Source: Zingiber officinale (taxonomy: Eukaryota > Streptophyta > Magnoliopsida > Zingiberales > Zingiberaceae). From it: 64,000 nt of DNA. The DNA is taken from assembly GCF_018446385.1 (NCBI RefSeq), contig NC_056002.1, positions 8,628,894 to 8,692,893 on the forward strand, read 5' to 3'. A program made the translations under genes and the position numbers. Numbering within the stretch: the stretch's first letter is position 1; each line of letters starts with the position of its first letter. The notes beneath the pieces are model-generated. The model was not told where the DNA came from, searched no databases, and saw only the letters and a list, made by a program, of their open reading frames with translations. Shown one piece after another: positions 4,438 through 46,944 of the stretch.

Positions 4438-4439
4438 CA

Positions 4440-4792
4440 GGCCTTCGGGTTCGAGCCCCTGGCTCGGATATAAACCTCCCGGCTAATCGGCTCGGGGGCC
4501 TTCGGCTTCGAGCCTGTAGCTTGGATATAAACCTCCCGGCCGAACGGCTCGGGGGCCTTCGTTTTCGAGCCCGTGGCTCGGATATAAACCTCCCGGCCGA
4601 ACGGCTCGGGGGCCTTCGTCTTCGAGCCCGTGGCTCGGATATAAACCTCCCGGCCGAACGGCTCGGGGGCCTTCGTCTTCGAGCCCGTGGCTCGGATATA
4701 AACCTCCCGGCCGATCGGCTCGGGGGCCTTCGTCTTCGAGCCTGTGGCTCGGATATAAACCTCCCGGCCGAACGGCTCGGGGGCCTTGGCTC
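4440..4792. repeat. 57-bp tandem repeat array (second block)
   Basis: About six copies of the same 57-bp unit as at 3385-3815, next to the primer-site side of the element. Confidence 0.85.
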
Positions 4793-4928: not shown

Positions 4929-4931
4929 ATT

Positions 4932-6568: not shown

Positions 6569-7326
6569 CCTTTACCGATCGAGCAGTTCATTCCCGATCA
6601 ATCATTGCAAGAGTGCTCCGCTCGACCCTCTTTAACGAGTCTATTAATTTTCTGACATTGAACTCCTTGACTTTAACCTCCACATAAATTATAATTCCAG
6701 TCCTTTGATTCACACATTAACCTCCTATTATCACAGCATCACTAATATTTATCTTATTTTTAAAACCTGTGTTGGATGGAGATGTAGGAGAGAAGGAGAT
6801 GACGAGACGACGCATGACATGCAGCGCCGGCACAACATAAACGCATGATGCAATACGAAGCGGTACACTTGTTCATTACTGATCTCTTTCATGGTACGTG
6901 TGGGAGCTGGTTCTTTGTAAAGAGAGTAAAATAAGAGAGGCTTTCAGGGTCACTGGCTAGCTTGGTTAGACTAATTCACCCGATGTGGCATAAAGAGAGA
7001 GCATATCAATGTTTGATAAAGAGAGGAATTAACCACCGAAGAAGCATATCGTAGGTGACTTGTTCCATGAGCATTCCAGGGTTTAAAGAGTCCATGCATC
7101 ATCAACCCTGTCGTCCCTTTTCCGTTTCCCTAGATGTCACAAATACCTCCCCTGTCACGCACTCTTCCTTCCCAATCCCCACCGCAATCGCCATGTGAAT
7201 CCCTCGCTAAAGCCTGCTTCTGTTCGCTGGAAAGCCTCGACGACGGTGCAATTTCACCACCAAATTAATCCTCATTTTTAATCTTCCCCACTCATGCATT
7301 ATAAAGGTGCAGGTTAGTGGACTCGA
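6569..7326. other. Intergenic, upstream region of the DUF247 gene
   Basis: There are no gene or clear repeats. Base composition is mixed. A TTATAAA at about 7299-7305 lies too close to the first ATG (7327) to be a confident TATA box for that start. Confidence 0.4.
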
Positions 7327-19595: not shown

Positions 19596-19868
19596 ATCCC
19601 CCCCTCAAACAAAGGACCACAGGCTTCCCACGTCCGATCCTCGACCCACCAGGTCTTCCTACCCCTCGGTCCACCTGACCTACTAGGACTTCCTTGTCTA
19701 GCCGCAACTAGGACTTCCTGCTTGGTGCCTGGTCCTCTTTATCTGAACATAAAAGCCCCCACGTTCTTTGTTCGAGGTCAATATTGTACCCACATGGCTC
19801 AATCAGACCATAGCTCTTGTGTACAGTTGACGGTTAAACCTTCTGGCAGTCTGGGCTCTGATACCAAT

Positions 19869-20806
19869 TGTTGGTGCAGCAGGGCCGGCAAGAGGGGAGG
19901 GGTGAATTGCCTGAAATAAAAATTACCCTCCTCAAACTTTCAACTCAAAAATAATAGCAACAATAAAAATTAAAATGAAATAACTAAAAAGAAAAGCAGA
20001 CTCAGTATTTTGACTTGGTTACAACCAAGAAGGTTGTTAATCCAAGGCGGTTAGAAAAAGCGCACTAGAACAGTCTCCTTTTCTGAAGGTGGAGAAGTCT
20101 TTTACACACTAGAAGCTTAAACAGTTGCTATGAAGTTGATACAGAATTGATTGAATGATTTCCTAGCTCCAGGGGCCTTTATATAGCTCCTGGAAAACTT
20201 ATCTCGAGACTTGAGGGCGCCTCCAACGAGGTTGAGGGCGCCTCCAGCCGAGTCAACGGATAGAACTTTATTCGAACTCGCAACAGTCATCTAGACTGGG
20301 TCGAAGGCGCCTTCAATGGCCTTGAAGGTGCCCTGGACAATGTTGAGGGTGCCTTCAAGGCAATAAAGGTGCCTCCAAGACTGCAGTCAGCACAGGCGCC
20401 TTCAGCACTTCGTTGAAGGCGGCTCCAGCTAGCTTTTCCAACTCCTTTTGACTTATTCTCTTCTTCCGAGGCTCCGAATGCATGGGTGATTGCGGCCAAC
20501 CGAAATAGGGCTCACCCGAACCCAATTCCTGACCTTCTCCTCGAGTAGTCTTCTGTCTCGGCTTCTCATCCCTCGAACATCGCGCACGTTCTTCTCATCC
20601 ACCGGTGTACTCTTCCGGAGCTCTCTCGTCCTTTGGACGCACCGAGCCCGTCGGCTCCCTTCTCGTGTCGTTCTTCTCCCAAGCCGCGTCTTCCGCTCGA
20701 CTTCCTGCGCTCCTAAGCTCCTGCACATTTAGACACAGGGATTAAATAACAAACAAGACTTAACCTAACTTGGTTGATCACATCAAAATCACCATGGGAT
20801 CCAACA
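19869..20806 (-). repeat. Long LTR, minus-oriented arm
   Basis: Plus-strand start TGTTGGTGCAGCAGGGCCGG, end ATGGGATCCAACA. The primer site (CTCTGATACCAAT) is directly to the left and the purine tract to the right. The inverted copy is 21330-22247. Confidence 0.85.
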
Positions 20807-21329
20807 ATCTCCCCCTTTTTGATGTGCATCAACCCAAGTTCAAGTTAGGGAATAAAACAGACAAGTAATTTAAAGAAATTACTAAACTAACATTTTAAGC
20901 AAAAATGTTGCAATAAAAGAATTTGCAACACTCAGTAAAAAATTTTTTAAAAATATTAACTCCCCTAAAACTTGTACCTATCTCTTCCCCTTTGATCACA
21001 TAAAAAAAATTGGGTAATAATTTTTAAGTAAAAATTTTCTAAGTAAAAAATTTATTCAAGTTTTAAAATAAATCATAAAAAATTTCTTAAGTTTTTGCAA
21101 ACACAAATTAGAAATATTTTAACCAGGAAAATTTTCTAAGTAAAAAAAATTGGGAAATTTTAAAAAAATGGTTAAGGCATTTTCTAATTTCTATTTTCAT
21201 TTTTTATCAGTAAGTTAATTAAACATTTTATTTCAATATTTTGGCTTCCAGGCAGTGGCGAGGCACTAGGCCTTCTTGGTTATTGGAGTAACAACCACTT
21301 TCTTAGACAAAGTCTCAAAAGGGAGAGAT

Positions 21330-22247
21330 TGTTGGACCCTGTGGTGGTTTTAATGTGATCAACCAAGTTAGGTTAGGTTCTGTTTGTTATTTAATCCCTA
21401 TGTCTAGGTGTGCAGGAGCTTAGAAGCGCAGGAAGTTGAGTGGAAGATACAGCTAGCGAGAAGAACGACACGGGAAGGGAACCGACAGGCTCGGTGCGTT
21501 CGAAGGACGAGAGAGCTGCGGAAGAGTACACTGGTGGATGAGAAGAATGTGCGCGACGTTCGAGGGATGAGAAGTTGGGACGGAAGACTCCTCGAGGAGA
21601 AGGCCGGGAATTGGGTTCGGGTGAGCCCTATTTCGGTTGGCCGCAATCACCCATGCATTCGGAGCCTCGGAAGAAGAGAACAAGTCAAAAGGAGCTGGAA
21701 AAGCTAGCTAGAGGCGCTTTCAACGAAGTGCTGAAGGCGCCTGCGCTGACTGCAATCTTGGAGGCGCCTTCATTGCCTTGAAGGCACCCTCAACCTTGTC
21801 CAGGGCGCCTTCAAGGCCATTGAAGGCGCCTTCGACCCAGTCTAGATGACTGTTGCGAGTTTAGATAAAGTTCTATCAGTTGACTCAGCTGGAGGCACCC
21901 TCAAGGCTGGAGATAAGTTTTCCAAGAGCTATATAAAAGGCCCCTGGAGCTAGGAAATCATCCAATCAATTCTGTATCAACTTCCTAGCAACTGTTTGAG
22001 CTTCTACTATGTAAAAGACTTCTCCGCCTTCAGAAAAGGAGACTGTTCTAGTGCGCTTTTTTCAACCACCTTGGATTAACAACCTTCTTGGTTGTAACCA
22101 AGTCAAAACGCTGAGTCTGCTTTTCTTTTCAGTTATTTCGTTTTAATTTGTATTGTTGCTATTATTTTTGAGTTAAAAGTTTGAGAAGGGTAATTTTTAT
22201 TTCAGGCAATTCACCCCTCTCCTCTTGTCGGCCTTGCTGCACCAACA
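21330..22247 (+). repeat. Long LTR, plus-oriented arm
   Basis: Starts TGTTGGACCCTGTGGTGG and ends GGCCTTGCTGCACCAACA. The purine tract AAAAGGGAGAGAT is directly to the left and the primer site ATTGGTATCAGAAC directly to the right. Confidence 0.85.
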
Positions 22248-22657
22248 ATTGGTATCAGAACCCGGACTGCCAGAAGGTTTAACCACTTACTGTGCACAAG
22301 AGCTATGGTCTAATTGAGCCATGTAGGTACAATATTTAATATGTGGTCTCCTCTTGAGCGGGTCGTGTCCAGTGTACCTCTAAACGCAAGGTACCCCCAA
22401 GTATAACTTGGATATCCATCCCTCAGTCTATCTCGACCTAGTCATATTCAGCGTTGATCTAGATATCCATGTCCCCTCTAGATATCTGTTTGATCAAGGA
22501 CTATTTCCAAATTAATATACTCATTAATCTGTGGAGCTTTATCATTAATTATATACGAACAGAAAAATAATAATTAATGATAAATATTTATCTTTATTAA
22601 ATCATTATCCACAAAATACATAAGGAGTGTCTTGGCACATAAGTGCACACACTAACA

Positions 22658-25262: not shown

Positions 25263-25289
25263 TGTCCCACAAACATCACTATCACTACA

Positions 25290-25560
25290 ACAAAAACTGC
25301 AAACGACAACACCCCTACGACAACGGTTTTAAGAGAAAGCGTTGCATATTTGCTCAAAGACAACGGTTTTTGCCAAAACCGTTGTCTTTGAACTCCCCAT
25401 TAAATATAAAAGACAACGGTTTTGGCAAAACTGTTGTCATTGAGCAATATTTTTTTTTAACGACAACACTTTTTACAACGGTTTTATAAACCGTTGTCTT
25501 TATCCGCGTTTTTAGCGTCTACAACAACAGTTTTGAAAAAATCGTTGTAATTGAATTTGG
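25290..25560. repeat. Left subterminal repeats of the Pack-CACTA
   Basis: Multiple CGACAAC, ACAACGGTTTT and AAACCGTTGTC words in both orientations; putative transposase-binding sites. Confidence 0.8.
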
Positions 25561-25783
25561 TCATTTCCCCCCCCTCGCTGTTTTCCTTTCCCTTGTTGTT
25601 TTCATTTCGGCGCCGTGTTTTTCCTTTGCGATCCCGAACCTAGGGCAATTTTCTTTCCCTCTCCTCATACAATCTCTTCACGCCATCCCGTCGACCACTG
25701 GATCTTCCTCCACAACGGTGTGCTCTCCTCTCTCTCTCATTCTCACCCTCACTCTTGATTTGTCTACCTTTGCCTCCTAAAGG

Positions 25784-26125
25784 TTCGAGATGAGCCATGT
25801 CCTTGGTGGGCTCCTTGCATCTTCCCCTCTTCTGGCACAAGCCTAGACCCGCTGCCTTCGTGCCAATGCAGGTAGCGCCAACTTCGTCATTGACAGGAGC
25901 GACGATGCGGTCTTCATCACCTTCTCCGGGACGCAAGCCGTCGCTTCGTCGTCTGGCCTTGGCAGAGGGTTCTTCGAACTTGCTTCCCTATACAGCGACA
26001 CACACGACATCTTCGCACCGCTGGGAAGAGGCGAGGAGGGTGACGGCGGGAAGCCGCAGCCCATGCTCCTCCAGGCCAGTGCCCTCCGCTTGTTTATGAG
26101 CTTGTACCACACCTCCGAGTTCCAG
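25784..26125 (+). pseudogene. PAD4-like N-terminal exon captured by the CACTA
   Basis: One 342-base stretch reads FEMSHVLGGLLASSPLLAQA, then TRCLRANAGSANFVIDRS, DDAVFITFSGTQAVAS and finally MLLQASALRLFMSLYHTSEFQ before a GT donor. This resembles the start of the lipase-like domain of monocot PAD4 (phytoalexin deficient 4), a partner of EDS1 in plant immunity. There is one in-frame stop after LLAQA, and only exon 1 is present, without the lipase-like core or EP domain, so it is a fragment. The family call is from memory of PAD4 N-termini; a SAG101/EDS1 relative is the alternative. Confidence 0.6.
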
Positions 26126-26706
26126 GTCTGCGCTCGATCTTTTTTTCCTTCGATTAGGGTTTCCTCTGCTTCAGATTCAATCAAATTAGGGTCATTTTTT
26201 TAAAAAAATAATTCACCAAATCGTCTTAATCGTATCATTAATTGAATATAGCGATCATTTTCCACGAGATTTGTTCCTCTAGTTTTTCTTAATGACTTCT
26301 TAGATCAGAGAAGAACATGAAAACATATGTCTGTTTCGCATGTAAGCAAGCTTCTTCTGCAGGGTTTATAGCAGACTGCAAAGGCATCAAGATTTTAGCC
26401 ATGGCATCCTTGTTTATTATTGTTTCTGTTCATGTCTATAGAACTACAGCAGAGTCGGAGATGCATATTTCTACATTATATGCTCCAAGAAGACTGCCCA
26501 TTTTCTAACAAAGAGAGACAACAAGTTTCAGTCAAAATAGGCTAATTTTTCCATGCCTGGAGAAGGCAGCAGAATCTTTGATATCCAAGTAAGTTTGATC
26601 TGCTTTCCATCATAAAATTAGCATGTGACCTCTTCTATACTCCTTTTGTTGTTTAGTCAGTATTAAGATAAGAAGTTCTGATTTTAAATCATTAATTAGT
26701 ATTAGG
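26126..26706. other. Unassigned segment between captured PAD4 and aminotransferase pieces
   Basis: Contains leader-like sequence (GATTAGGGTTTCCTCTGCTT near 26153) and a 63-codon open frame (26317-26508) without recognised domain. It may be intron or 5' leader DNA captured with either gene. Confidence 0.35.
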
Positions 26707-28024
26707 ATGGCGCCGAAGCCGCTGGACTACGAGTTCCTGAATGAGAATGTGAAGAAAGTTGCATATGCTGTTAAAGGGGAGCTTTACCTGCGGGCTTCGG
26801 AGTTGCAGAAGGAGGGGAAGAAGGTTATGATGCTTTCTCATACACAATTTTCGTTGATTGTGCCACAACATGATTTGAGTTAAATAGAATAAATTTTATT
26901 GAAAGAGACTCTTATTTCGATTCTTGAAAGATCTGACTTTGATTGTTTTTTTCCATTCTTGTTATCTGGTTGAAGATATCTTCCTGGGTTATTTAGCACT
27001 GTATATGTTTGCTTTATTGCTTGTATCAAGATATGAAGTGCACATATGCCTTTGATTCTTTTTATTGTTAGCTTGTTGGGATGCCACTTGTGAGATTAAA
27101 ATTTGAGGTTATAATACTGCACTCCCCTTGCAATTTATTCTTAAGAAACAAGATACAAGTTGGACTTACTTTCCATGAGATTGGTTTTTTTTGTTGTTTG
27201 CAGATTATTTTCACAAATGTCGGGAACCCTCATGCTCTCGAATAGAAGCCATTAACATTTCCCCGTCAGGTTTCCATTTTCTCTTTATTCTTTCTTAAAA
27301 ACTACTTGTATCAAAGTGTTGATCATTCTTCTCTATTGCTTAACTTAAGGAACGCAGCGAGAAAAAATCATCTTCACAAGTCAAAAATTCCTTGTACATG
27401 GAGCAATTTCTCCTTCTCTGTGCTCCCTGAGATAAAGAGACATTTTCCATTAGATTTCTCTTTTTAATGGTGTAATTTTTTACCTATACTATTCTCCAGG
27501 TGGTAGCATTATGCCAAGCTCCATTTCTATTGGATGACCCTAATGTCGGGCTTTTATTCCCAGCAGATGTCATTGCAAGAGCTAAACATTATCTTTCATT
27601 GAATTCGGGTGGTTTAGGTATTCACATATTCCTACAATTTTCAACTCGCAGTCTACTTAAACCTTTTCCTTTTTAATGCAGTCTGTTTCTCAAGCTAAAC
27701 TGCTTTGCAACTTGTTTCCTCTTGTTAATGGTGATCTGGAAAAGAAATGTATTCTGTACTTATTTGTGCATTTGTAACCCAAGCAATTTTTATGTTGGCC
27801 TTTTCATAACATTTGTGTCATATTCCAGTTTTTAGTTGTATCTTTATATGTAACAAACTCAAAACATCATCTGCAGGCTTGTTATTTTTTTTCATGTTGA
27901 TGAGTAAATATTGTTTTAGTCATTCTGATAAGAATCTCAACTTTCTTTCGAGCAATCAGGTGCATATAGTGATTCTCGAGGACTTCCTGGAATTAGGAAA
28001 GAATTTGCAGAGTTCATTGAAAAA
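26707..28024 (+). pseudogene. Glutamate:glyoxylate (alanine) aminotransferase fragment captured by the CACTA
   Basis: Four exons with GT-AG introns are 26707-26823 (MAPKPLDYEFLNENVKK to ELQKEGKK), 27204-27269 (IIFTNVGNPHAL, KPLTFPRQ), 27500-27617 (VVALCQAPFLLDDPNVGLLF) and 27960 to about 28024 (AYSDSRGLPGIRKEFAEFIE). This is the N-terminus of the alanine aminotransferase family and is closest in memory to peroxisomal glutamate:glyoxylate aminotransferase of photorespiration. The usual GQK is E-stop-K in exon 2, and the catalytic lysine and PLP-binding parts are absent. Introns are retained, so capture was at the DNA level. The fragment ends abruptly around 28025-28087, where FEN1 sequence begins. 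Confidence 0.85.
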
Positions 28025-28087
28025 TCTATGCATGAGTTGGACTTTTTTATTTCTTCTTCTAACTCTTGACATTTTGTATGGCCGATA

Positions 28088-29398
28088 AGTCATTTGCAAG
28101 GGATGTTCAATCGAACTATAAGATTATTAGAAGCAGGTATCGAGCCAGTGTAAGTTCATTTGCATGTCTAAATATCATTTTGTTTATCATTCAGCCACCA
28201 TATTTTATTATCATCTTTTTTATGCCAGATATGTATTTGACGGTCAACCTCCAGAGCTGAAGAAACAAGAACTTGCCAAAAGGCTAGTCTTTATAGTTTT
28301 GTCATTGTCCCCCTCCTTTTTTTTTGTTGCAAGATAATGATAATCTTTAAGCTTATTTTATTCTTTAGATATTTAAAGAGGAAAGATGCAACTAATGATC
28401 TGAACACAACAATTGAGGTCATTGCTTGTGCATAACAAGTACCTTTATTGGGACTCTTCAGTGTGCTAGAATTTCTTTTGCTGTCTTGGTTACATTTGTT
28501 GTTTGCAGACTGGTGATTTGGAGGGAATTGAAAAGTACAGCAAAAGGACTGTCAAGGTAATCTTTGATATTGCTATTTTATTGGAAATTACCATGAGGAT
28601 CTTATTGATTATGATGCAATCAGCATAAAGTTAGCATGCTGATTATCTGTTTTCTTCATATGTAACATAGAGTTTCTTTAAATATATTTTGAACTTTCAA
28701 ATTACTTTCTTGAAGAATTTGATTCTAGTAGATGACTGTAGAGTTTTTTCACAGGTAACCAAGCAATATAATGAAGATTGTAAACGTCTCTTAAGACTAA
28801 TGGGTGTGCTTACTATTGAGGTAAACTAGTCTACTTTCACTTATTGAATTCTTTATCCTTGCTACAAGAATTTGAACTAACAATGACACAATTTTACTTT
28901 CTCTTGCAAACATTTCCTAAAGTTGCATGCAATTGCTTAATATACAAGTATTGTATCTCTAGTTTTAGAAGCTAAACTCATCTTTCTGATCTAAAGGCAC
29001 CCTGTGAAGCAGAAGCTCAATGCACAGCTTTTTTCAAAAGTGACAAGGTAAAATGATGCAATGTAACACATTCTATTTTATTTTTTTTAACTTTAATATC
29101 CTAAACGTATTTGTTTGTTATCAATCTCTAGGTGTTTGCGGTTGCCTCAGAAAACATGGATACTTTAACTTTTGGGGTACCAAGGTTTCTCCATCATTTA
29201 ATGGATCCTAGTTCCAAAAAAATCTCTGTGATGGAATTTGACGTTTCAAAGGTATATTTATTCTGCTTATTGCTAATTGAATTACTGTATTTATTCTCAT
29301 CCTTATTTTTCAGGTTTTTGAAGAGCTAAGACTCACTATGGATCATTTCATTGATTTGTGTATTCTCTTTGGATGTGATTATTGTGATAACATTAAAG
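28088..29398 (+). pseudogene. FEN1 (flap endonuclease 1) fragment captured by the CACTA
   Basis: Nine exon pieces with introns are 28088-28149 (SHLQGMFNRTIRLLEAGIEP), 28229-28282 (YVFDGQPPELKKQELAKR), 28369-28417, 28509-28556 (KYSKRTVK), 28755-28820 (QYNEDCKRLLRLMG), 28997-29047 (APCEAEAQC), 29132-29251 ([29 protein letters not shown]), and 29314-29398 ([19 protein letters not shown]), with the phase kept at each join I checked. FEN1 cuts 5' flaps during DNA replication and repair. The start, the C-terminus and the H3TH region are missing. The first Asp of the usual SEDMD active-site motif is Asn, and one donor is GC. No stops were seen within the exons, so capture may be fairly recent. Confidence 0.88.
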
Positions 29399-30739
29399 GT
29401 AAACTTTCTTATGAGATATTGTACATTCAACAAGTTTAACATACAAGGCTAGTACTCTACTGCTTACTGTTTACGAAATTTGATAACTAATGTTCATTCA
29501 AATCTCTAGTATGATAATGCTTGTGTGGTTGAATATGATGTCAGTGCTACAACTGTTCCATGTCTATGTTACTTGGACTTGATATAGTTCAACATGAGTA
29601 TGATCGCAATCTCTGACATGACTATTTTTACAAATTGTACATGTGTTCAATAGGATTAGTGATTGTTCACTCTTAGTGTCACTGTTTGAGTGTCATTATC
29701 CAAGTATCTATATCCAACGCAGATTCCATGAAATAAATTATACACATACCTTTGCCCAATACCTCATTCTAACATTTGATGTTACATGACGCTTATTTAG
29801 TTGTTTCTGCATTATGCAAGGACTGACGGTTAAATTATATTTTGTGAATACCAGAGTTCTTTTCCTTTCAAACACAACATTGATATTCCTCTTCCAATGT
29901 GTTACTCATGAATGCAGCTGATTGAGAGAGGATTTATTATTATTATTATTAGAACCATATTTCGATAAGGCTCCTTGAGTCACATGGAGTACATTAGTTG
30001 GAAGATTTTTTCCATTTCTTCTAGCAGTGGCTAATAGTTCTGCAACATGTACAAATAGATACTCAAAGATTATGTTCAAGGGTAGTCATAAGTTTGAGTC
30101 AATGTAAAACTTGATGAAGTTGCAAAAAATCCTCTTTAAACCAGTCATTAGTTGAAAACATAAGAGAAGGAGGAAAATTTGTAATTGTCTATTTTTTCCC
30201 TAACTGGATAAAAGTAGTTTTTTAGTTGCTCTTATTCTTTGGTAGTCATATTTATAGTAATTTTGACTATAACCACCTCAAACATGCAACTTCGAGTATA
30301 AAATGGCTTGTTTCCTTGTATTGCTTATTTTCCAAGAATTTATATTGTCATGTAGACTATAATATGGAATTATGGAATTTTATAAGTTTTGTTGAATTTT
30401 TCTTTTGCAGGTCGGGCAATTCGTGAGGCTTGAGTTTTTTTGATGCAAGAAGTGAGCTTTGTTAGGATGTAGCTTGCCTTGCTAATTTGTAAATTAAAAG
30501 CGCGCCATATGGAGAACAACAAATGGAAAACATGTGATTTAATGTATATGGAGAACAGTAATGAAAAACATGTGTATTTTGATGAGTAACAACTCATTTT
30601 GTATATTTTTGTATATGTGTGGCTACAAGATGAATTATATATGGATGTTTATTTTAGATTTAATGTAGTAAATATTTAGTTTTGTATTGGTGGTTTGCTT
30701 ATAGTAAAATAAGATTGATTGTTTGGTATTAATGAACAT
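29399..30739. other. Unassigned right interior of the Pack-CACTA
   Basis: AT-rich, with a (TTA)n tract at 29934-29953 and a GGTCGGGCAATTCGTGAGGC segment after a CAG at 30410 that could be a further exon edge. No domain was recognised. Confidence 0.35.
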
Positions 30740-31160
30740 TAAAGACAACAGTTAAAAATATTGTAAAAACTATGTAAACCACAACGATTTTTTTTTGAAA
30801 AAAGTGATAAAAGACAACGGTTTTATCCGTTGTAAAATATATTAAAACTGTTGTAAAAAAAAAATAAAATGAGTAAATATTATCTACCACAACAGTTTAT
30901 ATTTGTTGTAAAAAGAGTCTACTACAACGGTTTATTTCTGTTGTTGAAATTAGCTACCACAACGGTTTTAAACCGTTGTCGTATCCTTCGTAGCTAAATT
31001 TTGAGCATATATACAACAACGGATAAAAATCGTTGTCAAATGTCTACAAAGACAACGGATTCAAAACCGTTGTCGTAGGCCAATACATTCTACAACACCC
31101 TAAGTTACAACGATTTTTTGACCCTACGACAACGGATAATATCCGTTGTCGTTTGCAGTT
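30740..31160. repeat. Right subterminal repeats of the Pack-CACTA
   Basis: The same GACAACGG / CCGTTGTC words as at the left end, about a dozen copies, many as close inverted pairs. Confidence 0.8.
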
Positions 31161-31204
31161 TTTGTTGTAGTGTATGTATGAGTTCTAGTGGTTCCTTTGC
31201 CCGT

Positions 31205-32620: not shown

Positions 32621-32801
32621 TCTAAAATTTAAAGCAGAGTTTTAGTATTTGCGGAATATATTTAATAAAGATCTTTTATAACTCTTATTATTTTATTCAA
32701 GTCCAACATCCCTCATTGTTAGAATCAGGAATTGGTTGGTAACAATTCCTAATAGGACCGAAACCCTGAATCATATAAAATGCACACAGTTGAGTTGTAC
32801 C

Positions 32802-33825
32802 TGTAGGATCATTGGGTCGGCAAGAAAGGGGGTTGAATAGCCCTGAAAAAAAATAAAATCGACCCTTCTCGACTTTTCAAACCAACACTTGAAGAATAAT
32901 AAAATAAACAGAAAATAAAAAATCGAGGCACCGGATTTGACTTGGTTACAACCGGGGAGGTTGTTAATCCAAGGAAGATGATCACACTACTATCTCCTTC
33001 AGGCGGAGAAGCCTCTTTTACAGCAGTATAGGCACAGAAAGAGAGAAGCTAATCTAAACAGTGGAAGCGCACAAGTGTTGTTACAATTTCTGAATTCGTT
33101 TAAAAACTTCTGGACCAAGGTTATATTTATAGTCTTGGTCTGGGCGCCTGGAAGGGTTCCGGGCGCCCTGGGGGGATAAAACTTTATCCCCCAATGTTCA
33201 GATCGAGATTGACTCGATCTGGTCAAACTTCACGGTCCGAGCGCCCGGAAGGGTTCCGGGCACCCCCGGGCTGGTCCGGGCACCCCGGGCTGGTCCGGGC
33301 GCCCCGGACCCCCAAGTCAACAAATGTTGACTTTTCTCCATCGGGACCTTTGCTCCGGTTCGGTCCGCCTCGGTCCGGGTCTTCTACTCTGGATCCGCTT
33401 ACTTGGGTGATTTCTGCCATCCGAAAAAAGGCTCACCTAAACCCAACTTCCGGTCTTCTCGAGTGGACTTCCACTCCGGCTTCTCGTCCCTCGAAATTTC
33501 CACGTGTTTCCTTCTCGTCCGCCGGCGTACTCATCCGCAGTCTTCGTCCCTCGGACGCACCGCGTGCCGTCCTTCTCGCTAGCTGTGTCTCTTGCTCCTC
33601 AAGCAGTCTTCCGCTCCGGCTTTCGTCCCTCGGAACCACCGCATGCTTCTTTCTCGTCCGGGGGTGTACTCTTCCGCAGCACCTCGTCCCTCGGACACAC
33701 CGCGTGCCGTCTTTCTCGCTAGCTGCTTCTACCACTCGACTACCTGTGCTCCTAAGCTCCTGCACACTTAGACACAAGTTTAGAAACACACAGGACCTAA
33801 CTTAACTTGTTGATCACACCAAAAC
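32802..33825 (-). repeat. 3' LTR of the gag-only element, main part
   Basis: Matches 45884 onward; its last bases (AACCTTGGGGTTCCAACA) are at 43648-43665 beyond the nested solo LTR. Confidence 0.85.
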
Positions 33826-34724
33826 TGTTGGTTAGTCCTAGGAAAACGTACCGATTTCACGGTACAAAAATTTTTATACAAGTGTCGAACCTTTCCTTAA
33901 ATAACCTATTGTGTTCTTTAGAAGTTAAATTAGGAATCGCAGACGGAACTTAACATCATTGATTCGAAATTTAACTTATCTGTTCTTAATGGTTTAGATT
34001 TGAATCGCAAGCGGAACTTAACACTATTGATTCAAATCTACCTAAGTTATTAATTCCATTAAATATTAATTTCCAAAATTGGCTTCCAGGACTGCATGGC
34101 GAGGCACATGGCCTTCTTAGATATGGGAGCAACCACCACCGCCTAGGCAAAGCCTTTTAAGGAAAGCTAATATTTAATTTCCTTAAATAACTTTAGGTTA
34201 ACCAAAAAGAACAATTGAATCACAAATTCGAAAAAGAAGAAACACAAACTCGAAAAAAACTTATTCGAAAAACTAGATCTAATTGCCTCTTGTATTTAGA
34301 ATTCTTACAAAGAAAATAACTAGTATGATGCGGAAGAAAACTACTAGTTATACCTTCTCTTTGTAAGCTAACGACCTCAAGATCTTCTGTCGTATTCCTC
34401 GCCTCGCCTTGGGCGTCGTGTGGGCGACGATCCTCCAAGATGAACACTGCCCAAAAGAGCTTCTCCTCCTTGTAATATTCGGCCACCACCACCACAATAG
34501 AAAAGAGAGCAAAGGGAGAAGAGAGGAAGAGAGGGGCCGACCACCAAGAAAGTCTCCAAGCCAAAGAATAAGAGTTGTGTCTCATGAAGCCCCCTCACCC
34601 CTTCTTTTATATTACTTGCCCAAGGCAAATAAGGAAAAACTTTTTACAAAAAATAAAATCAACCAAGAGTTTTTCCTTTTCCCTTTCACTACAAAAATAC
34701 ATGAGTTTAACGACGGGCGTACCG

Positions 34725-35190
34725 ACGGAATCTTAACTCCGTCGGCATATACCGACTGAATATAATTCTGTCGGTAAGTACCGACGGGGTTTAGGTCCGT
34801 CGGTAATCACCGACGGAAATCTTAATTCCGTCGGTGATTACCGACGGAATTCTAAATTCCGTCGGCGAGTAGCATAAAATCGCCGTTAGAATTTTGGGAA
34901 TTTCCGACGGACTTATTATTCCGTCGGTAAAGAGGCGGGTCCGGGTGTAAATAATACCGACGGAATAATATTCCGTCGGTAATTAACGGGTTTAGGGTTA
35001 TATTATACCGACGGATATATGATTCCGTCGGGAAATTTCCCCGTACCCGTTTCCTCTGCGTTCGCTAAACCTTGCCCGCTAACTTAGCAGAAATCACCGA
35101 CGGAAATAATCATTCCGTCGGTGATTACCGACGGAAGTCTATTTCCGTCGGTGATTACCGACGGAAGTATACTTCCGTCGGTAAATCTCG
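34725..35190. repeat. Left subterminal repeat array of the coding CACTA
   Basis: About a dozen paired copies of TTCCGTCGGT / ACCGACGGAA, many as short palindromes such as ATTCCGTCGGTxxxTACCGACGGAAT. Putative TNPA-binding sites. Confidence 0.88.
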
Positions 35191-35870
35191 ATTTAGGGCA
35201 CAGAATTCCCTTTCCTCTTCGCGCGATCTTTCCCTCAGCGGCGGCGGCGATTTTCCAGCGGCTCTTCGAGCGATCTCGGCGGCTCTTCGAGCGATCTCGG
35301 CGGCGCCCTTTCCTCCCGTGCACACCGTTTCGGCGATCTCTCAGGTATGATCTTCTATTCTCCTCTCTCGTTTGTGTTTTCACACGCCGGCAGCCGCGCC
35401 CTGCTCGCTGATCGCTGCCGGCGGCCAGTGGGCTGCTCGCGGGCAGCGGCCTGCTCTCGGCCGCCGGCCTGCTCGCGGCCGCCGGGCTGTTCACGGCTCG
35501 CTGCTCGCGGCCAGCAGCCTACTCGCAATTGTAGCGGTGCTTTGTTACTGTTCGTAGCTGAGCACAATGTAAACCCTAGAAAATTTAAATGTAAGTGACA
35601 TATTTTGATCAATTTCGCTATTGTACTTGCATAAAATGTAGTTTGATCGATGCTTCTCATATATGTATGATTATTTCATTTGATAATGCTATAAGGAACA
35701 ACATGTTTATAATAGTTTCATTTAATTGTTCTAGTGTAGAGGTGATTTATGGTAATATGATATGATGATCGTGAGATGAAATTGTGCACATAATTCTTTA
35801 TTTAAACTTATTTCAAGTGATACAACAAGTTTAATAATGTTTCAATTTATATTCTCTTTAGGTTATACCA
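35191..35870 (+). promoter_or_regulatory. Leader and probable promoter region of the CACTA genes
   Basis: A GC-rich stretch (35215-35540) with CGGCGGC / GGCTCTTCGAGCGATCTCGGC repeats and CTGCTCGCGGCCGC words, then AT-rich DNA ending in a TTTAG acceptor just before the transposase ATG (35871). This is consistent with a 5' UTR intron. Open frames here are low-complexity. Confidence 0.45.
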
Positions 35871-38800
35871 ATGTATATGAACAAAGCTTGGATGTACAAT
35901 CGATTAGACAATGGTTTTATCAGAGATGATTTTATTGCTGAAGTTGAACAGTTTGTGATTTTTGCTAAAAGTCATCCAGAATGTATGAATGGTTCTGAGT
36001 TACGGTGTCCGTGTAATCATAAAAAATGTCAAAATAGAGCATTTCGTGATGAGGATACCGTAAAAATGCACATATGTAGAAATGGATTTGTGCCAAATTA
36101 CTACAATTGGTATTGCCACGGAGAGCCTTATATATATGAACCAATTGGGTCATCTGGTGGTTCATATTCTGGGACTACTGTTACAGCTCCTGAAGCATCA
36201 AATAATATTGATATTTCAATGCAATCAATGGTTCAAGATGCAATGAATGCAGTTGATTATTCGAATATAGATGAAATACCAACCCCTGAATATCAGCAAC
36301 TATATGAAATGTTAAAGGCTAGTGAAAGAGAAGTGTGGGAAGGCATTCCTTTCAGTCATTCACAACTATCAGATAATGAAGGTTATTGAATATGAAAGCG
36401 AACATCATTTCTCGGAAAGATGTTACGATGACATTTGTCAATTGATGTCGAGTTGCTCCCTACCGATAACATAATGACTGATAGCTTCTATGAAACAAAG
36501 AAATTGATCGAGGTTTAGGTTTGCCTGTAGAGAAAATTGATTGTTGTATAAACAACTGCATGATATTTTGGAATGAAGACAGTGATTTGAATGAATGTAA
36601 AATCTGTACTCACCCTCGTTTTAAGCATCGTAATCACATACCAGGGAAGAAGAAGAAAAATATTGCTTGGAAAGTAATGTATTATTTTCCGTTAACTGCT
36701 AGACTTCAACGCTTGTATGCATCTGCTGCTACAGCTAACCACATGGTGTGGCATCATGAGCATGAGCATGAGCATGAGCATGAAGAAGGTATAATGTGTC
36801 ATCCTTGTGATTCTCCTGCATGGAAACATCTTGATAATGTGTTTCCCTCCTTTGCAATGGAACCACGAAATGTGAGATTGAGACTTTCTGCAGATGGATT
36901 TCAACCATTTGGTCAGTCGGGACAACAATATTCATCTTGGCCAGTTATATTAACACCGTACAATTTACCACCATGGATGTGCATGAAAGATGAGTTTATG
37001 TTTCTTACCGTGCTTATTCCTGGTCCAGCCAATCCAAAAGATAAGATAGATATTTTCTTGCAACCTCTAATTGCCGAGCTTAATGAATTATGGAATGTAG
37101 GCTCGGTTACTTATGATATTGCAAGTAAAACTAATTTTACATTGCATGCGGCCTTATTATGGACGATCAGTGATTTTCCAGCATACTCAATGTTGTCGGG
37201 ATGGAGCACGGCTGGTAAATTAGCATGCCCACATTGCATGACAGAGTCCGATGCATTTTCATTACCTTGCAGTGGGAAGATATCTTGGTTTGATAATCAT
37301 CGTAAATTTCTACCACTGGATCACCCTTTTAGGCGAAATAAGAAAAATTTTCTAAAGAATGTTGTAGTCAGAAAACCTCCCCCAGCAGTCCATGCTTCAG
37401 GTGAAGAAATCATTGAACAAATAGATAGTTATGGATTCCTCCCAGTATCTCAGCCTAATTCTGATGAGATAAATAAGTATCTTGTGAGGACGAGCAAGTG
37501 TGGTTGGAAGAAAAGGAGCATATTCTGGGAGTTGCCTTATTGGAAGTATCTACTCATTCGACACAATATAGATGTGATGCATGTCGAGAAAAATTTCTTT
37601 GATAATATCTTCAACACTGTGATGAATGTACCTGGAAGAACTAAGGACACTGCAAAATCACGTGAAGAATTAAAAGAACTAGTCAACAGACCAGAATTGC
37701 ATCAGAATGAAACAACCAATAAGTTTCCAAAAGCTTGTTATACATTGGACAAAGATGGTAAACAAGCTTTATGTAGTTGGTTAAAAGAAATTAAATTTCC
37801 AGATGGATATGCTTCGAATATGGCTCGATGCGTTGACATGAACAAATTAAAGATGTTTGGAATGAAGAGTCATGACTGTCATGTGTTCATGCAAAGACTT
37901 ATTCCAATAGCTTTTCATGATTTACTTCCCAATAATGTTTGGCAAGCACTTACAGAGTTGAGTCTTTTTTTCAGAGATTTGACAGCGAGGTGTATTATGA
38001 CGGTTGATATGATTCAGCTAGAGACTGACATTCCTCTCATACTTTGTAAGTTGGAGCGTATATTTCCACCAAGTTTTTTTGATTCAATGGAACATCTACC
38101 GGTACATTTACCATATGAGGCACGAATAGCTGGTCCTGTGCAGTACAGATGGATGTACCCATTTGAAAGGTTTTTAAGGAAATTAAAAAATAATGTTCGT
38201 AATAAAGCAAGAGTTGAAGGGTCAATATGTAATGCTTATCTGGTGGAGGAAGCATCTTCGTTCTGCTCTTATTATTTTGCTGATAATGTTAAAACCAGAC
38301 ACCGCAAATGTCCTAGAAATTCCGATGATACTCAGAATATAGATCCATCGATGCTTTCTATTTTCAAATTTTCTGGTAAACCAATGGGTGCATCTGTTTC
38401 TAGATGGTTAACTCAACAAGAATACCATGCTGCAAGAACATACATACTCTTAAACTGTGATGAGGTCAAACCCTACATAAAGTAAGTTAACTTCTCTAAT
38501 CAAGCTTTTATTTCGTTGTAGTTAATTGCTTGATATCCTAATTTTCTTATAATTATCTTTTTTCAAAGCTTGTATGAGCAACAATTACATCTTCAAAATC
38601 CATCAATAACTGCAAGTGAGGTTGCTGAAAAGTTAGAGACCGAATTTGCATTATGGTTTCAAATATATGTGAGTTAGAGAAATTTTCATAATTATTTATT
38701 TATAAAAATTTGGTCCTAATTTTTCGTATTACTATTTTGATAGGTGAAAGACCGAAGAATATCTAATGTACAAGATGATAGAATATTGAATCTTGCATCT

Positions 38801-39457
38801 GGACCCCTACGCCAAATAATGGTCTATTCGGGTTACTATGTTAATGGTCTCAAATTCCATGTGAGACAACGAGATTCGCAGAGATTAACTTTTAATTCTG
38901 GTGTCTGCGTTAAAGGATCTATCGACACCAATAACACTGAGTTTGATTACTATGGTAGACTTGAGGAAATTATAGAGGTTGAGTATCCTGCATTACCGAT
39001 AAAAAGGTGTGTGTTGTTCAAATGTTCATGGTATGATCCAACCCCAAGAACAGGTACCAGAATACATCCAAATTATAATTTAGTAGAGGTTAATGCAAAC
39101 AGAAGGTTCAATAAGTTTGAACCTTTCATTTTTGCAATACAAGCGGGTCAGGTGGTTTATCTTGAATATCCTACGAAGAGAAGAAGAACTAGTGAATGGT
39201 TGTCTGTTTGTCGATTGAAGTCTCGTTCAACCATAGAAATGCCGAACACTATTACTGCTCAAAACCATGATGCATTTCAGAATGACGAAGTAGAGAGACA
39301 TTCAGTTGATTCACAAATCCAATCTACATCACAATTACTTGTAGATGGTAATGCCACTGACGAGGATATAGATGATGGAGAGAAATCCAGCAGTGAGGAT
39401 TTTGTTGAACTAACAGAGTCTAGCGACGACGACTTACAAACTGTTAATGTTGAGTAG
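35871..39457 (+). CDS. TNP2-type CACTA transposase (Transposase_assoc, Transposase_21, DUF4218, DUF4216)
   Basis: The first part, 35871-36389, has the transposase-associated domain (WMYNRLDNGFIRDDFIAEVE, ELRCPCNHKKC, HICRNGFVPNYYNWYCHGE). A long frame to 38481 carries the TNP2 core (LTPYNLPPWMCMKDEFMFLT, VLIPGPANPKDKIDIFLQPL, LACPHCMTESDAF, IDVMHVEKNFFDN) and DUF4218 (LPVHLPYEARIAGPVQYRWM). A 100-base exon 38569-38668 and a last exon 38744-39457 (DUF4216, ECPALPIK-like VEYPALPIKRCVLFKCSWYD) follow GT-AG introns. Between 36389 and 36525 the conserved sequence (LLNMK, SEHHFSERCYDDICQLMS, ELLPTDNIMTDSFYETKKLI, RGLGLPVEKID) is spread over different frames, about four one-base shifts in 140 bp. 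The 654-codon frame starting at 36521 begins with TTG and so is not a separate gene. It is probably inactive unless this patch is a sequence error. Confidence 0.88.
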
Positions 39458-39607
39458 AAATGCTTCCAGAGTCTAGCATTGATTAAATTTTAGCATTATT
39501 ATTCATCTAGTAAGTTATGCTTTAATCATGTTTTTTTGCTTATTTATCATGTTATTAAAGATTTATTATGATGTGTGCTAATATGGTTTTTGTAGATATA
39601 AGGTATC

Positions 39608-40938
39608 ATGGCAGATCTTCCAGCACCACTCCGTGGATCCACCGTACTTAGGGTTGTTGGAGAGTCGTAAGTATTTTTTTTATTATTAGTAATTCAAGTT
39701 CTTTATTTATAACATATATCTTATGTCTTAATATTGCTTATATGTAGGTTTACTCCCGACGGCCATCGAGTATCCACCTATATCACACGGAAATTTAAGG
39801 AAAGAGTCTGCATATCTGGGACTACATGGAGACATGTAGATGCTGGAACTAAGGATTTCTATTATCAAGAATTTGTGGTAAGTAAATTGAATATGTACAT
39901 TATATTTATCCTTTAATATTCTAAAATTTTATTTTTAAATTGCAGAAAAAATATACATGGGAGGAGGGATACGAGGTAGAATTTGCAAAAACTTGGAATA
40001 TTTATTGTGCCAAGTTGTACAAAGACCTATTATACTATGTGAGAAAGGATGGCACACGGCCTGCTTATGTATCCGAGGAGATTTGGAGTGCATGGACGAC
40101 CACTTGGTCTGCAGAAAGATGGCAAACAAATGCTCTAAAAGCTCGAGCGAATAGGAATACAGAGTCAGGTGGTCCGAGTACTGGATCTGCTCGACATACA
40201 TCAGGATCTCGTTCCATTGTTGAGCACGCTATGGATCTGGTGATTTTAATTTAAAGTTATATAAATTAAATTGTTATTTATTAATGAACTTGTATAATTT
40301 TAGTCAAATTTGTTTGTGCATGCAGGAGCGTTCTTTAGAAAGACAACCCACTTGCTTGGAGATCTTTCTCAAAACTCACAAGAGAAAGGATGGCACATAT
40401 ATTGATGATCGATCAAAGAACATTGGGGTTTGAATTAATTTATATTTAATCTTTAATAATGATTAATTAGCTTTACTAATTGTGTATAATATATAAATTG
40501 TATATTTTTTCTACACAGGAGGAAATGACAAGCAGGGTTGCTCAGGCATCTCAGCCACCAGTAGAGGGAGGGGAGTCACAGGATCTATCCACCCAGGATA
40601 TAAATGAAATTTATTATGATGTTGTGGGTGGAAGGACAAAGAACTCCTCCCTCTACGGCCTTGGTTCCCAGGCGAAGGTGGTATTTGATCGCTTGAGGAC
40701 TCCTAGGGGTCGTGCGAGTTCCTCTTCTTCTTCTTCTGAGGTGGAGTCATTAAGAAAAGAAAACCAAGACTTGAAGACTCAGATGACTACCATGGATCAG
40801 AAGTGGGAGAAGAAGTGGGCTGCACAGGAGCAGACATTAGCCCAGATGCAAGCAATCATTGCACGATGGGACCCCTCACAGCAGCCCCAGTCAGAGGAGA
40901 CCCCAGACCCATCAGACCCAGACCCCGCTGATGATTAG
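39608..40938 (+). CDS. TNPA-like CACTA protein (Transposase_24 family)
   Basis: Five exons (39608-39666, 39748-39877, 39946-40239, 40326-40427, 40519-40938), all GT-AG and in phase, encode 334 residues from ATG to TGA/TAG-type stop with no break. The middle has the plant transposon protein signature (ISGTTWRHVDAGTKDFYYQE, KKYTWEEGYEVEFAKTWNIY, RPAYVSEEIWSAWTTTWSAE). A late coiled coil (VESLRKENQDLKTQM) precedes an acidic, proline-rich tail. TNPA-type proteins bind the subterminal repeats and assist TNP2 in excision and can relieve methylation. It starts 150 bp after the transposase gene, same strand. It appears intact. Confidence 0.87.
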
Positions 40939-41560
40939 ATTTTGTTGAGGTATGTTTATCTATAACTTGATTTTTTTATATTTTTTAGATATTCATTAAG
41001 TCAAATATATTTATTGTATATTATTAGATACTTATCTTAAAGTGTTTTACATTTTTCAGGAGTTCATACTGATACATTCACCATCACCACTATTATTGGT
41101 TATCCAAAATATAATCCAGGTATTTTTTTTTTACAAGTAAAATTAGTCATATATAACAATGTTTGAGTTATATTACATTTGCATCGAGTTATTCTAATCA
41201 TAATCTATTGTATTTGACTTTTACAGGATTATATTCGGATATATGTATAAGTGATGTATCATGGTATGTATTTTGGATATTTTGTATTTGTCGTTCACTT
41301 GTATAAATTTAGATATTTTTGATTGTGAGAACTTGATACTTAGATTTTATTATAGTTTGGAGATTTTCTATTTGTCGTTCAGTTATGTTTATATTTTTGT
41401 TGTATGTTGTATTTTGGAGATTGTGGATTGATTTATATTGTGATATTGTTAATATATTGTGTGGATTGTGTTTGTGATACCATCGATTGTGATGGTTTGT
41501 ATTTGTATTAAATTTGTATATGGGAAACTAGCAAAACAGGGGCTGGATATCAAAATTTTT
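40939..41560. other. 3' region of the CACTA genes
   Basis: AT-rich, with several TTTTTCAG and TTTACAG acceptor-like sites (41056, 41220), suggesting 3' UTR introns. No coding sequence. Confidence 0.4.
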
Positions 41561-41569
41561 CCAGATTTT

Positions 41570-42110
41570 TACCGACGGAATTATAACTTCCGTCGGTAAC
41601 TTATCGAAAAAAGCACAGGTTTTCTTCGATATAATACCGACGGAATAACTAATTCCGTCGGTAAACACCCGACGGAAACATATTTTCCGTCGGCCAACAC
41701 CGACGGAATAGCCTTTTCCGTCGGCAAACACCGACGGAAACCCTAATTCCGTCGGTATAATTCCGACGGAAAAGGCTATGCCGTCGGTGTTTACCGACGG
41801 AAAAACTGATTCCGTCGGTGTTTACCGACGGAAAATATGTTTCCGTCGGTGTTTACCGACGGAATTAGGGTTTCCGTCGGTAGTCTCCGTTGACCGCCAT
41901 TTGTTTTTTTACCGACGGGTAAGAATCTCAGTCGGTAATATACTGACGGAAATATATATTCAGTCGGTAATTACCGACGGATGTATTTTTCCGTCGGTAA
42001 AGTTATTGCCGACCAAAATTCTTCCGACATCAGAAATTCCGTCGGCATTCCGTCGGTAATCTCATATACCGACGGAATACCGACGGAAAATTCAGTCGGT
42101 AATAATGGTA
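41570..42110. repeat. Right subterminal repeat array of the coding CACTA
   Basis: Same TTCCGTCGGT / ACCGACGGAA palindromic words as at the left end, about fifteen copies, ending just inside the TIR. Confidence 0.88.
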
Positions 42111-44741
42111 ATTTTTGTAGTGTTTTTATTTTTCCTTTTCTTTCCTCTTGATTAAATCAATCACCAATTTTAATTTTGTGATGATTTTAATTAATTTTAA
42201 TATGGCCGGCCACTTGCTTGGGCACCAAGCAAGGTGGCCGGCCACCTCATTAAGGGGAAAAAGGAAATATATTTTTTTATAAAATTTTACAAGAAAACTC
42301 TTATAAAAATTTACAAGCTCTCTTTCCTAAAGTAGGAGTTAAAAAAGGAAAGTTCTAAAAATTAAAACCATGTTTTAAAATTTAAAACTTCTCTTACAAA
42401 ATTTCCTTTTTTAACATGATGATAGAAAATTTTAATTTTAAAACTTTTCTCCCTTTTTTTCTTAAACCATGAGGATGGTTAAAAAAGAAAAACTTTTAAA
42501 ACTTTTAAAACTCTCTATTAAAACATGTAGCCAAATTCAAATAAGGAAAGTTTTTAAAATTAAAATCTCTCTTTTAAAACTTATAGTTTTCTACAAAGAG
42601 AAGATTTTAAAAATTCAAAAACAACCCTCCTTGTTTGAATATTGTGGCCGGCCCCTTCATGCTTGGTCACCAAGCAAAGGGTCGGCCCCTATAAAGAGGA
42701 TGTGGCCGACCCTTGCTTGGTCACCAAGCATTGGACCGGCCCACTTCTTGGACACCAAGAAGAGCCTTACATTTGGATGGACTTGAGGCTATAATGAAGC
42801 TACGACAGGGACCTAGAGGAGAAATTGATTTTGGCCTTCCGATGAGCTTGAGTATCCTGTGCTCGCCCCGAACACACAACTCAAGTTCATCGATAATAAC
42901 TCATTCCACTAGAGAGTTATTATCGCACTACCACACCAATCCCAAATTACATTATGGGTTCCTTCTTATTATGAGTGTGTTAGTCTCCCTGTGTTTAAGA
43001 TTACGAATGTCCACTAATTAAGTAAGTTATTGACAACTCACTTAATTAATATCTAGCTCCAAGAGTAATACCGCTCAACTTCATTGTCATGTCGGACTAA
43101 GTCCACCTGCAGGGTTTAACATGACAATCCTTATGAGCTCCTCTTGGGGACATTCTCAACCTAGATAATTAGGACACAAATTCCTTCTATAATCAACAAC
43201 ACACACTATAAGTAATATCATTTCCCAACTTATCGGGCATATTGCTTGTTATTATATTAGGATTAAGAGCACACACTTCCATAATAACTAAGGTCTAGTT
43301 CTTTTACTAAGTCAGTACAAAAAGAACTTACCTAAATGGTCCTACTCAATACACTTAAAGTGTATCAGTGTAATTTATTAGTTAAGATAAACTAATACTT
43401 AATTACATTACGACTATTCTGATGGTTTGTTCCTTTCCATCTTAGTCGTGAGCAACTGTTTATAATTTATAGAGAACCGACAACATGATTTTCTGAGTGT
43501 GGCACCACACTTCATGTTATCTACTATATAAATTAATTGAACAATTACATTTAACAAATAAATGCAGATATTGACCAATGTGATTCTTTTATTTCAAAAA
43601 TAAATGTTTACAAAAGCTAGGCTTTTAGTATACACTCCAACAAAAATAACCTTGGGGTTCCAACAATCTCCCCCTTTTTGGTGTGAGCAGCCCAAGTTAA
43701 ACTAGGGTAAAAATAGACATTAAAAAACTTAACTAAATTTGCAATTAAGTGAAAAAAAATAAAACAAGTTAAATTTTGGTCTACCTCCCCCTAGGCTTAT
43801 ACTTTTCCTTCTTCCCCTTTGATAACATAAAAAATGGGGTTCTAAGAAAAAATCTAAGGGTAAAAAAAACTTAGAAAATTTTGAGATCCTTAAAAATTTT
43901 GCAATAAATAGTCTCTGAAAAAAAAATTTAAGTAAAATTTTAAGAAAATATTCTAAGTGAAATGATAAAAAAAAAATTCTAACTTAGACAGCTTTGCAAA
44001 AAATTTTCTAAGTTAAAAAATATTTTTGAAAAAAAAAATTAAGTTTTTGCAAAAATTATTTTTGAAAAAAAAAATCCTAACTTAAGATTTTTCTAAGTAA
44101 AATTTCCTAAGTAAAAAATTTCATGTAAGAGTATTTTTCTAAGTATAAACATATTTTGAAAAAAAATGTTTGAAAAACTTTAAAAGCATTAATTAAATCT
44201 AATTTTAATGCTTTGACCGAAAGTTAATTAAACATTTATTTCAATATTTTGGCTTCCAGGTCGTGGCGAGGCACTATGCCTTCTTGGTTATTGGAGCAAC
44301 AACCACTTCCTTAGACAAAACCTCATAGAGAAATTCACTGTTTAATTTTCTCACTGAAAGCATTAATTTCATTTAAAATTTAGACTAAGCAAGATTTAGG
44401 AACCCAATATAGGTTCCAGCTTACTGGATTAACTAAATATTTCTTAGGTACATATTTTCTTGAAATATTACTAATTTATCCCTGGTGATATCTATAATAC
44501 CAATTTAAATTTTTAAATTTTCTAAAATGAGATGAGCATGCATGGTTTTTCAAATTATCTACTTGAATTTTCAAATATTTATTTTCTGATTTCAATTTCT
44601 CATTTTCTAATTTTGATTTGTCTAATTCTTCTAAGGGACAAGATTTAGCCAAAATTATTTTTACGTTTTTAATCTCCTTTTCTAATTTGCAACAGTCTTT
44701 TGTTAATAGTTTAACTTAAAGAGTTTATCAGGAGGAAGTGA

Positions 44742-45764: not shown

Positions 45765-45883
45765 CAGCTTTTTCTAAGTGGCGAAATCCCCTTCGAATTT
45801 CAGTGGATGGATGCTTGGTCTGGTCATCTCGTTGCTTCATTCGGCGATTAGTCCTCCTGAAGCGCCTTGGCTCTGATACCACT

Positions 45884-46944
45884 TGTAGGACCGTTGGGCC
45901 GGCTATAAGGAGAGGTTGAATAGCCCTGAAAAAAAAATAAAATTGACCCTTCTCAACTTTTCAAACCAACACTTGAAGAATAATAAAATAAATAGAAAAT
46001 AAAAAACCGAGGCACCGGATTTGACTTGGTTACAACCGTGGAGGTTGTTAATCCAAGGAAGATGATCACACTACTATCTCCTTCAGGCGGAGAAGCCTCT
46101 TTTACAGCAGTGTAGGCACAGAAAGAGAGAAGCTAATCTAAACAGTGGAAGCGCACAAGTGTTGTTACAATTTCTGATTTCGTACAAAAGCTTCTAGATC
46201 AAGGCTATATTTATAGCCTTGGTCGGGGCACCTGGAAGGGTTTTGGGCGCCCTGGGGGTATAAAACTTTATCCCCCAACGTTTAGATCGAGATTGACTCG
46301 ATCTGGTCAAACTTCAAGGTCCAATCGCCCGGAAGGGTTCCGGGCGCCCTAGGCTGGTCCGGGCACCCCGGACTGTTCCGGGCACCCCGGACTGTTCCGG
46401 GCGCCCCGGACTCCCAAGTCAACAGATGTTGACTTTTCTCCATCGGGACCTTTGCTCCAGTTCGGTCCTCCTCGGTCCAGGTCTTCTACTCCGGATCCGC
46501 TCACTTGGGTGATTTCTATCATCCGGAAAAGGGCTCACCCGAACCCAACTTCTGGTCTTCTCGAGTGGGCCTCCGCTCCGGCTTCTCGTCCCTCGGAATT
46601 GCCACGTGTTTCCTTCTCGTCCGCCGGCGTACTCATCCGCAGTCTTCGTCCCTCGGACGCACCGCGTGTCATCCTTCTCGCTAGCTACGTCTCTTGCTCC
46701 TTGAGTAGTCTTCCGCTCCGGCTTTCGTCCCTCGGAACCACCGCACGCTTCCTTCTCGTCCGCCGGTGTACTCTTCCGCAGCACCTCGTCCCTCGGACGC
46801 ACCGCGTACCGTCCTTCTTGCTAGCTGCGTCTTCCACTCGACTACCTGTGCTCTTAAGCTCCTGCACACTTAGACACAAGGTTAGAAACACACAGGACCT
46901 AACTTAACTTGTTGATCACACCAAAACAACCTCGGGTTCCAACA
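45884..46944 (-). repeat. 5' LTR of the gag-only element
   Basis: 1061 bp. The GC-rich centre (46200-46860) contains repeated GGGCGCCC/CCGGGCACCCCGGACTG words and gives spurious open frames. Confidence 0.88.

Follow-up and report, generated by a model that had tools for sequence, protein, structure and literature searches.

Insertion of a single CACTA-type element into a Copia retrotransposon

When a transposon has picked up pieces of several plant genes, does it make anything new of them, or does it merely carry them along? The question is raised by the segment 25283-31172 of a 64-kb stretch of Zingiber officinale DNA (contig NC_056002.1, positions 8,628,894 to 8,692,893, forward strand; the whole stretch is called the window, and its numbering is used throughout). 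A sequence-only reading of this DNA had proposed a Pack-CACTA transposon with pieces of three unrelated host genes, and the CACTA ends together with the PAD4-like, aminotransferase and FEN1 homologies described below point the same way. We conclude that the element is very probably a non-autonomous Pack-CACTA with passive cargo from three genes, whose latest jump took it into a Copia retrotransposon no more than about 3 million years ago. The features of its ends are as follows.

25280..25282, no strand: left TAT of the target site duplication; one TAT suffices to keep the Copia integrase in frame
25283..25310, + strand: left terminal inverted repeat (TIR), 28 nucleotides (nt), beginning CACTACAACAAAAACTGC; 100% complementary to 31145-31172
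25283..25560, + strand: 5' transposon end with nine ACAACGGTTTT-like subterminal repeats in both orientations and a strong RNA fold; repeat scan, folding against shuffles
30740..31172, + strand: 3' transposon end with nine ACAACGGTTTT-like subterminal repeats, inner border approximate; repeat scan
31145..31172, - strand: right TIR, 28 nt; 100% complementary to 25283-25310
31173..31175, no strand: right TAT of the target site duplication; Copia integrase in frame when a single TAT is retained

The segment 25283-31172 is a single CACTA-type element. Its TIRs start with CACTA, and its subterminal repeats are clustered and lie in both orientations, which are traits of the CACTA (En/Spm) superfamily. 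The ends had been described as perfect over 18 bases; their complementarity is indeed perfect, and it extends over 28 nt. When up to three mismatches were allowed, the first 18 nt of the end were found at three sites in the window (0.03 expected from shuffles), namely, both element ends and a three-mismatch site at 31811. No further copy with the same ends was found in the 64-kb window beyond the element itself, and the exact 28-nt end had no match in viral and prokaryote contigs, where none was expected. Repeats like ACAACGGTTTT, with at most one mismatch, occurred 21 times in the window versus 1.6 times expected: nine at 25320-25548, nine at 30781-31117, none between these clusters and three elsewhere. 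The reported TAT duplication was also recovered, with TAT flanking both sides of the element. A 3-bp target site duplication is typical of the CACTA superfamily, and the TAT pair fits this.

The element splits the integrase reading frame of a Copia element that spans 18383-49079. In Pfam searches, the flanks matched a minus-strand Copia, with the rve integrase core (E 1.7e-10, from a read in which 46 bases belong to the CACTA end), the reverse transcriptase RVT_2 (E 1.2e-22) and gag (E 1.2e-15). When the short flanks were joined with one TAT retained, one open read ran over the insertion point, restoring the local frame. The TIR pair thus belongs to one insertion, on which the sequence-only reading had made its proposal depend. 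Slightly upstream within the same joined read, the Copia frame shifts; Copia was thus broken independently of the CACTA insertion. The Copia borders were set by reading: both copies of its long terminal repeat (LTR) start with TGTTGGG on the + strand, and AGATG is found at both outer flanks. The LTR pieces were 92-93% identical over aligned sites, with a Kimura two-parameter distance of 0.083 in one comparison (321 sites, 3 gap columns) and of 0.076 in the other (1018 sites, 155 gap columns). At the rice rate of 1.3e-8 substitutions per site per year, this divergence corresponds to about 3 million years, and the CACTA element can have inserted no earlier than that.

The Copia element is apparently host to several nested insertions, the Pack-CACTA among them. 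An LTR-like pair (32799-33825 / 45881-46927) is nested in it and encloses a second CACTA element, and an inverted 1-kb pair (19780-20819 / 21317-22336) lies inside its left LTR.

Gene fragments within the element

Judged by homology to known proteins, the element carries host gene sequence. Its first half contains a PAD4-like piece and an aminotransferase piece.

25561..25780, + strand: CT-rich stretch, no family assigned; Pfam blank on reads 25490-25777 and 25555-25755 (+) and 25643-25987 (-)
25781..26125, + strand: PAD4-like exon with a GT donor after it and a TAG in frame at 25844-25846; PDB match spans 25904-26125
26126..26706, + strand: intron of PAD4, upstream sequence of the aminotransferase, or both; nothing significant in Pfam/PDB searches of some reads
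26707..26823, + strand: aminotransferase exon 1, ATG start; PDB homology
27204..27269, + strand: aminotransferase exon 2, codon 53 of the spliced frame being TAG; PDB homology, splice modelling
27500..27617, + strand: aminotransferase exon 3; PDB homology
27960..28036, + strand: aminotransferase exon 4, truncated, homology stopping inside it and the FEN1 junction lying before ~28088; PDB homology, splice modelling

The only PDB match of the PAD4-like exon below E 0.001 was Lipase-like PAD4 (8zf0_C; E 7.1e-4), and the only other one up to E 1 was an esterase (0.88). Upstream of 25904, we assume the PAD4 identity from reading and from the known PAD4 sequence. The TAG stands 18 codons past the ATG used, which is possibly not the native start. 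The aminotransferase exons matched two PDB chains named Alanine aminotransferase 2 (E 1.4e-18 and 3.2e-16); we take the enzyme to be of the glutamate-glyoxylate (photorespiratory) type. In Pfam, neither the PAD4-like piece nor the aminotransferase piece had a match. A fourth captured gene was suspected in 26126-26706 and rejected, as some of its reads had no significant Pfam or PDB match and the best PDB match (E 9.8) was taken as chance.

The second half of the element contains a FEN1 piece.

28088..28149, + strand: FEN1 exon a, homology recognised from PDB-chain residue Ser62 onward; PDB homology, splice sites
28229..28282, + strand: FEN1 exon b, GC donor; PDB homology, splice sites
28369..28417, + strand: FEN1 exon c; PDB homology
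28509..28556, + strand: FEN1 exon d; PDB homology
28755..28820, + strand: FEN1 exon e; PDB homology
28997..29047, + strand: FEN1 exon f; PDB homology
29132..29251, + strand: FEN1 exon g, with Asn at residue 179 where the PDB chain has Asp; PDB homology
29314..29398, + strand: FEN1 exon h, ending at residue 239 of the PDB chain; PDB homology
29399..30739, + strand: probable FEN1 intron remnant and sequence without an assigned family, possible short exon at 30411; tested reads without a supported family

The exons correspond without gaps to residues 62-239 of a flap endonuclease 1 PDB chain, presumably the human one (E 5.6e-59; 93 of 178 residues identical), and match Pfam XPG_N and XPG_I. The FEN1 fragment proposed earlier was thus recovered, with eight exons instead of nine, because 28093-28136 and 28137-28149 form one exon; for a possible ninth exon from 30411, there was no supported homology. 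In the open-access literature, a search on how many exons FEN1 has turned up a single review, on base excision repair. The piece covers only the middle of the protein, residues 1-61 and those past 239 being absent. Residues 86, 158, 160, 179, 181 and 233 are those that we take to be catalytic. Asp86, Glu158, Glu160, Asp181 and Asp233 are retained, residue 179 is Asn and residue 157 is Cys. A scan of prokaryote contigs with the FEN1 fragment gave 40 pattern matches and no confirmed relatives.

All three gene pieces lie on the + strand with their introns retained. Eleven of the 12 donors are GT and one is GC, and all 10 acceptors are AG. Since the exons are separated by introns with mostly canonical splice sites, the fragments derive from genomic DNA and not from spliced mRNA. 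Three fragments share one orientation by chance in 1 of 4 cases, so their common orientation is not evidence of selection.

Apparent lack of a transposase and possible routes of capture

The sequence-only reading had seen no transposase in the element, and our scan agreed. None of the 20 stop-to-stop reads of at least 65 amino acids (aa) in the element matched a Pfam transposase model at E <=0.1, shorter reads being mostly unscanned; the longest stop-to-stop read was 118 aa. Weak Pfam matches below the cutoff (zf-CCHC_2, DUF1655, Gemin6_C and zf-C2H2_7) were taken as chance. Movement would depend on the transposase and the helper protein of an autonomous CACTA relative, acting on the terminal and subterminal repeats; members of the superfamily are moved by a transposase of the TNP2/TNPA type.

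The second CACTA element (34687-42122) bears a transposase, with the domains Transpos_assoc, Transposase_21 (tnp2), DUF4218 and DUF4216. Its own two ends agree with each other over their first 12 nt, TTT stands on both sides, and it has ACCGACGGAAT-type subterminal repeats. As a mother element, this neighbor was rejected because its ends diverge from those of the Pack-CACTA after CACTACAA and because a self-BLAST of the window (E <=1e-5) gave no matches in 25560-30730.

The fragments were probably acquired in earlier transposition and repair events. For Pack-TYPE elements, a model of capture by fusion of neighboring insertions has been put forward (PMC8903248). We detected no TIR or subterminal-repeat remnants between the three fragments: inside the element, no site matched the 28-nt end at more than 17 positions, as against 16 to 21 identities in 30 single-base shuffles. 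Either the inner ends were deleted, or the capture came about differently, for example by template switching during repair. To explain this element, the model of fused neighbors would need deletion of the inner ends.

State of the captured exons and other explanations

The captured pieces look like broken passengers, not like a new gene. They look broken because of the TAG codons in the PAD4-like and aminotransferase pieces, the TGA ahead of FEN1 in the fused exon between aminotransferase and FEN1, the D179N change, the GC donor and the outcome of splice modelling. Seven splice forms were modelled, a chosen few of those possible, and for each form the open reading frame (ORF) from the first ATG and the two longest ORFs were listed. 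The first-ATG ORFs were 18, 18, 18, 18, 42, 52 and 114 aa long, and among the ORFs listed, none of the seven forms joined two native frames. ORFs containing FEN1 sequence (99 to 186 aa) lay behind 3 to 19 upstream ATGs. A single transcript joining exons of all three genes had been envisaged. As RNA, such a chimera is possible in principle, given the splice sites and the example of the soybean CACTA element Tgm-Express1. A chimeric protein is unlikely, with stops in the PAD4-like piece, the aminotransferase piece and the gap between aminotransferase and FEN1, and with no native frames fused. Any transcript across the element would most likely be a spliced RNA lacking a joint coding frame; at best, it would give rise to small RNAs by which the element is silenced and the parent genes are perhaps affected.

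Several points weigh against passive cargo in a typical CACTA element. The FEN1 frame is open through eight exons (178 codons, no stop, no gap). Skipping of aminotransferase exon 2 gives the 114-aa first-ATG ORF, and when aminotransferase exon 1 is joined directly with FEN1 exon b, a 184-aa ORF with FEN1 sequence results, behind three upstream ATGs. The cargo shows no depletion of CHG sites (observed/expected ratio of 0.99; 0.59 in Copia pol) although CpG sites are depleted (0.47; 0.50 in Copia pol), so it may be young; as a sign of methylation-type decay, these figures are not decisive. Finally, the duplication is of 3 nt only; a 5-nt duplication, as given for the CACTA elements annotated in PMC8903248, is absent.

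Three other explanations were weighed against a Pack-CACTA with passive cargo. The element could be a source of small RNAs that act in trans on its parent genes (PAD4, aminotransferase and FEN1), which we consider unlikely. Sense pieces of three genes lie within a repeat-rich element, and the RNA fold of its 5' end (25283-25560) reaches -88.6 kcal/mol (z -9.02; 200 shuffles), but the folded stretch is a transposon end with no recognised gene piece. Furthermore, among the 25 longest of 57 inverted repeats, all those longer than 22 nt sit in the ends, and the gene pieces are therefore not in hairpin form. The folded 5' end has a possible small-RNA precursor shape, and no Rfam match at the gathering score was found in the window.

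Alternatively, the element could be an expressed exon-shuffling unit, whose transcript joins captured exons into a new or interfering peptide, such as a truncated FEN1 or aminotransferase. The mostly intact splice sites and the open FEN1 frame would suit it, as would precedent: Tgm-Express1 yields spliced chimeric RNAs (PMC1947982), and on wheat chromosome 3B, 26% of the CACTA-captured genes are transcribed and 13% are expressed with dN/dS <0.4 (PMC4290129). We nevertheless give it little weight. The first-ATG ORFs are short, no listed ORF fuses two native frames, and FEN1 has lost both its flanking parts and Asp179; moreover, the isolated Tgm-Express1 transcripts began at the promoter of the surrounding gene (PMC1947982), whereas the present element sits in Copia. 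It is very improbable that the element is transcribed and that its spliced or small RNAs act on the PAD4, aminotransferase and FEN1 parents; if they did, one mobile locus would link immunity, photorespiration and DNA replication.

That the inverted repeats do not bound one insertion and the fragments form an ordinary pseudogene cluster is scarcely credible, since nothing was found in its favor and the 28-nt TIRs, the TAT on both sides, the frame-restoring empty site and the subterminal repeats confined to both ends all oppose it.

Other features of the window

Outside the Copia retrotransposon, a DUF247 gene (7318-8755) has its halves in different + frames (7318-7974 and 7997-8755), possibly because of a frameshift or an intron. 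A PPR protein is encoded on the minus strand at 59927-61831 (635-aa open read). GC-rich tandem arrays with 53-57-nt units (2926-4787) lie between 0.9-kb copies that are 92% identical (1298-2207 and 4930-5905).

Comparison with known gene-capturing elements

In the open-access literature, we found no paper in which a CACTA element carries parts of FEN1 or PAD4 and none containing the 18-nt end sequence as text. The element itself may thus be unpublished, but others of its kind are known, and it leaves the understanding of the CACTA class unchanged. Its value would lie in a clean, datable multi-gene capture in which ends, duplication, interrupted retrotransposon and captured introns are all readable. 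It could also help to test capture models because the sequence between the fragments showed no remnant of an inner TIR or of subterminal repeats.

CACTA-mediated capture is shared with wheat chromosome 3B, where the work was a survey and not a study of a single element. There, 140 CACTA capture events were counted; 46% of the captured genes had a functional-looking structure, the rest being classed as pseudogenes, with a mean of 3.05 exons and 12% possibly from exon shuffling (PMC4290129). Grapevine class II elements, CACTA included, also bear captured gene fragments (PMC2528002). The Pack-CACTA and other Pack-TYPE elements of Arabidopsis, rice and maize likewise combine CACTA TIRs, a target duplication and captured coding DNA from at least one locus; they differ in their cargo genes, and the duplications given for the CACTA elements annotated there are of 5 nt, compared with 3 matching nt here (PMC8903248).

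Three genes in 5.9 kb had been called unusual, a judgment that the published examples do not bear out. Maize Pack-TYPE elements often contain several loci, with Pack-CACTA having the largest number of distinct loci, and in rice, a significant number of multilocus elements was reported for Pack-Mariners only (PMC8903248). Tgm-Express1, a 5.7-kb CACTA element at the soybean wp locus, holds five host gene fragments (PMC1947982; see also PMC2613891), whose exons are spliced into varied transcripts, with at least 12 distinct ones found (PMC1947982). That element lies in an F3H1 intron and is transcribed and spliced, whereas ours has three recognised fragments and lies in Copia. The two are alike in being CACTA elements of nearly the same size that carry parts of several unrelated host genes, exons and introns alike.

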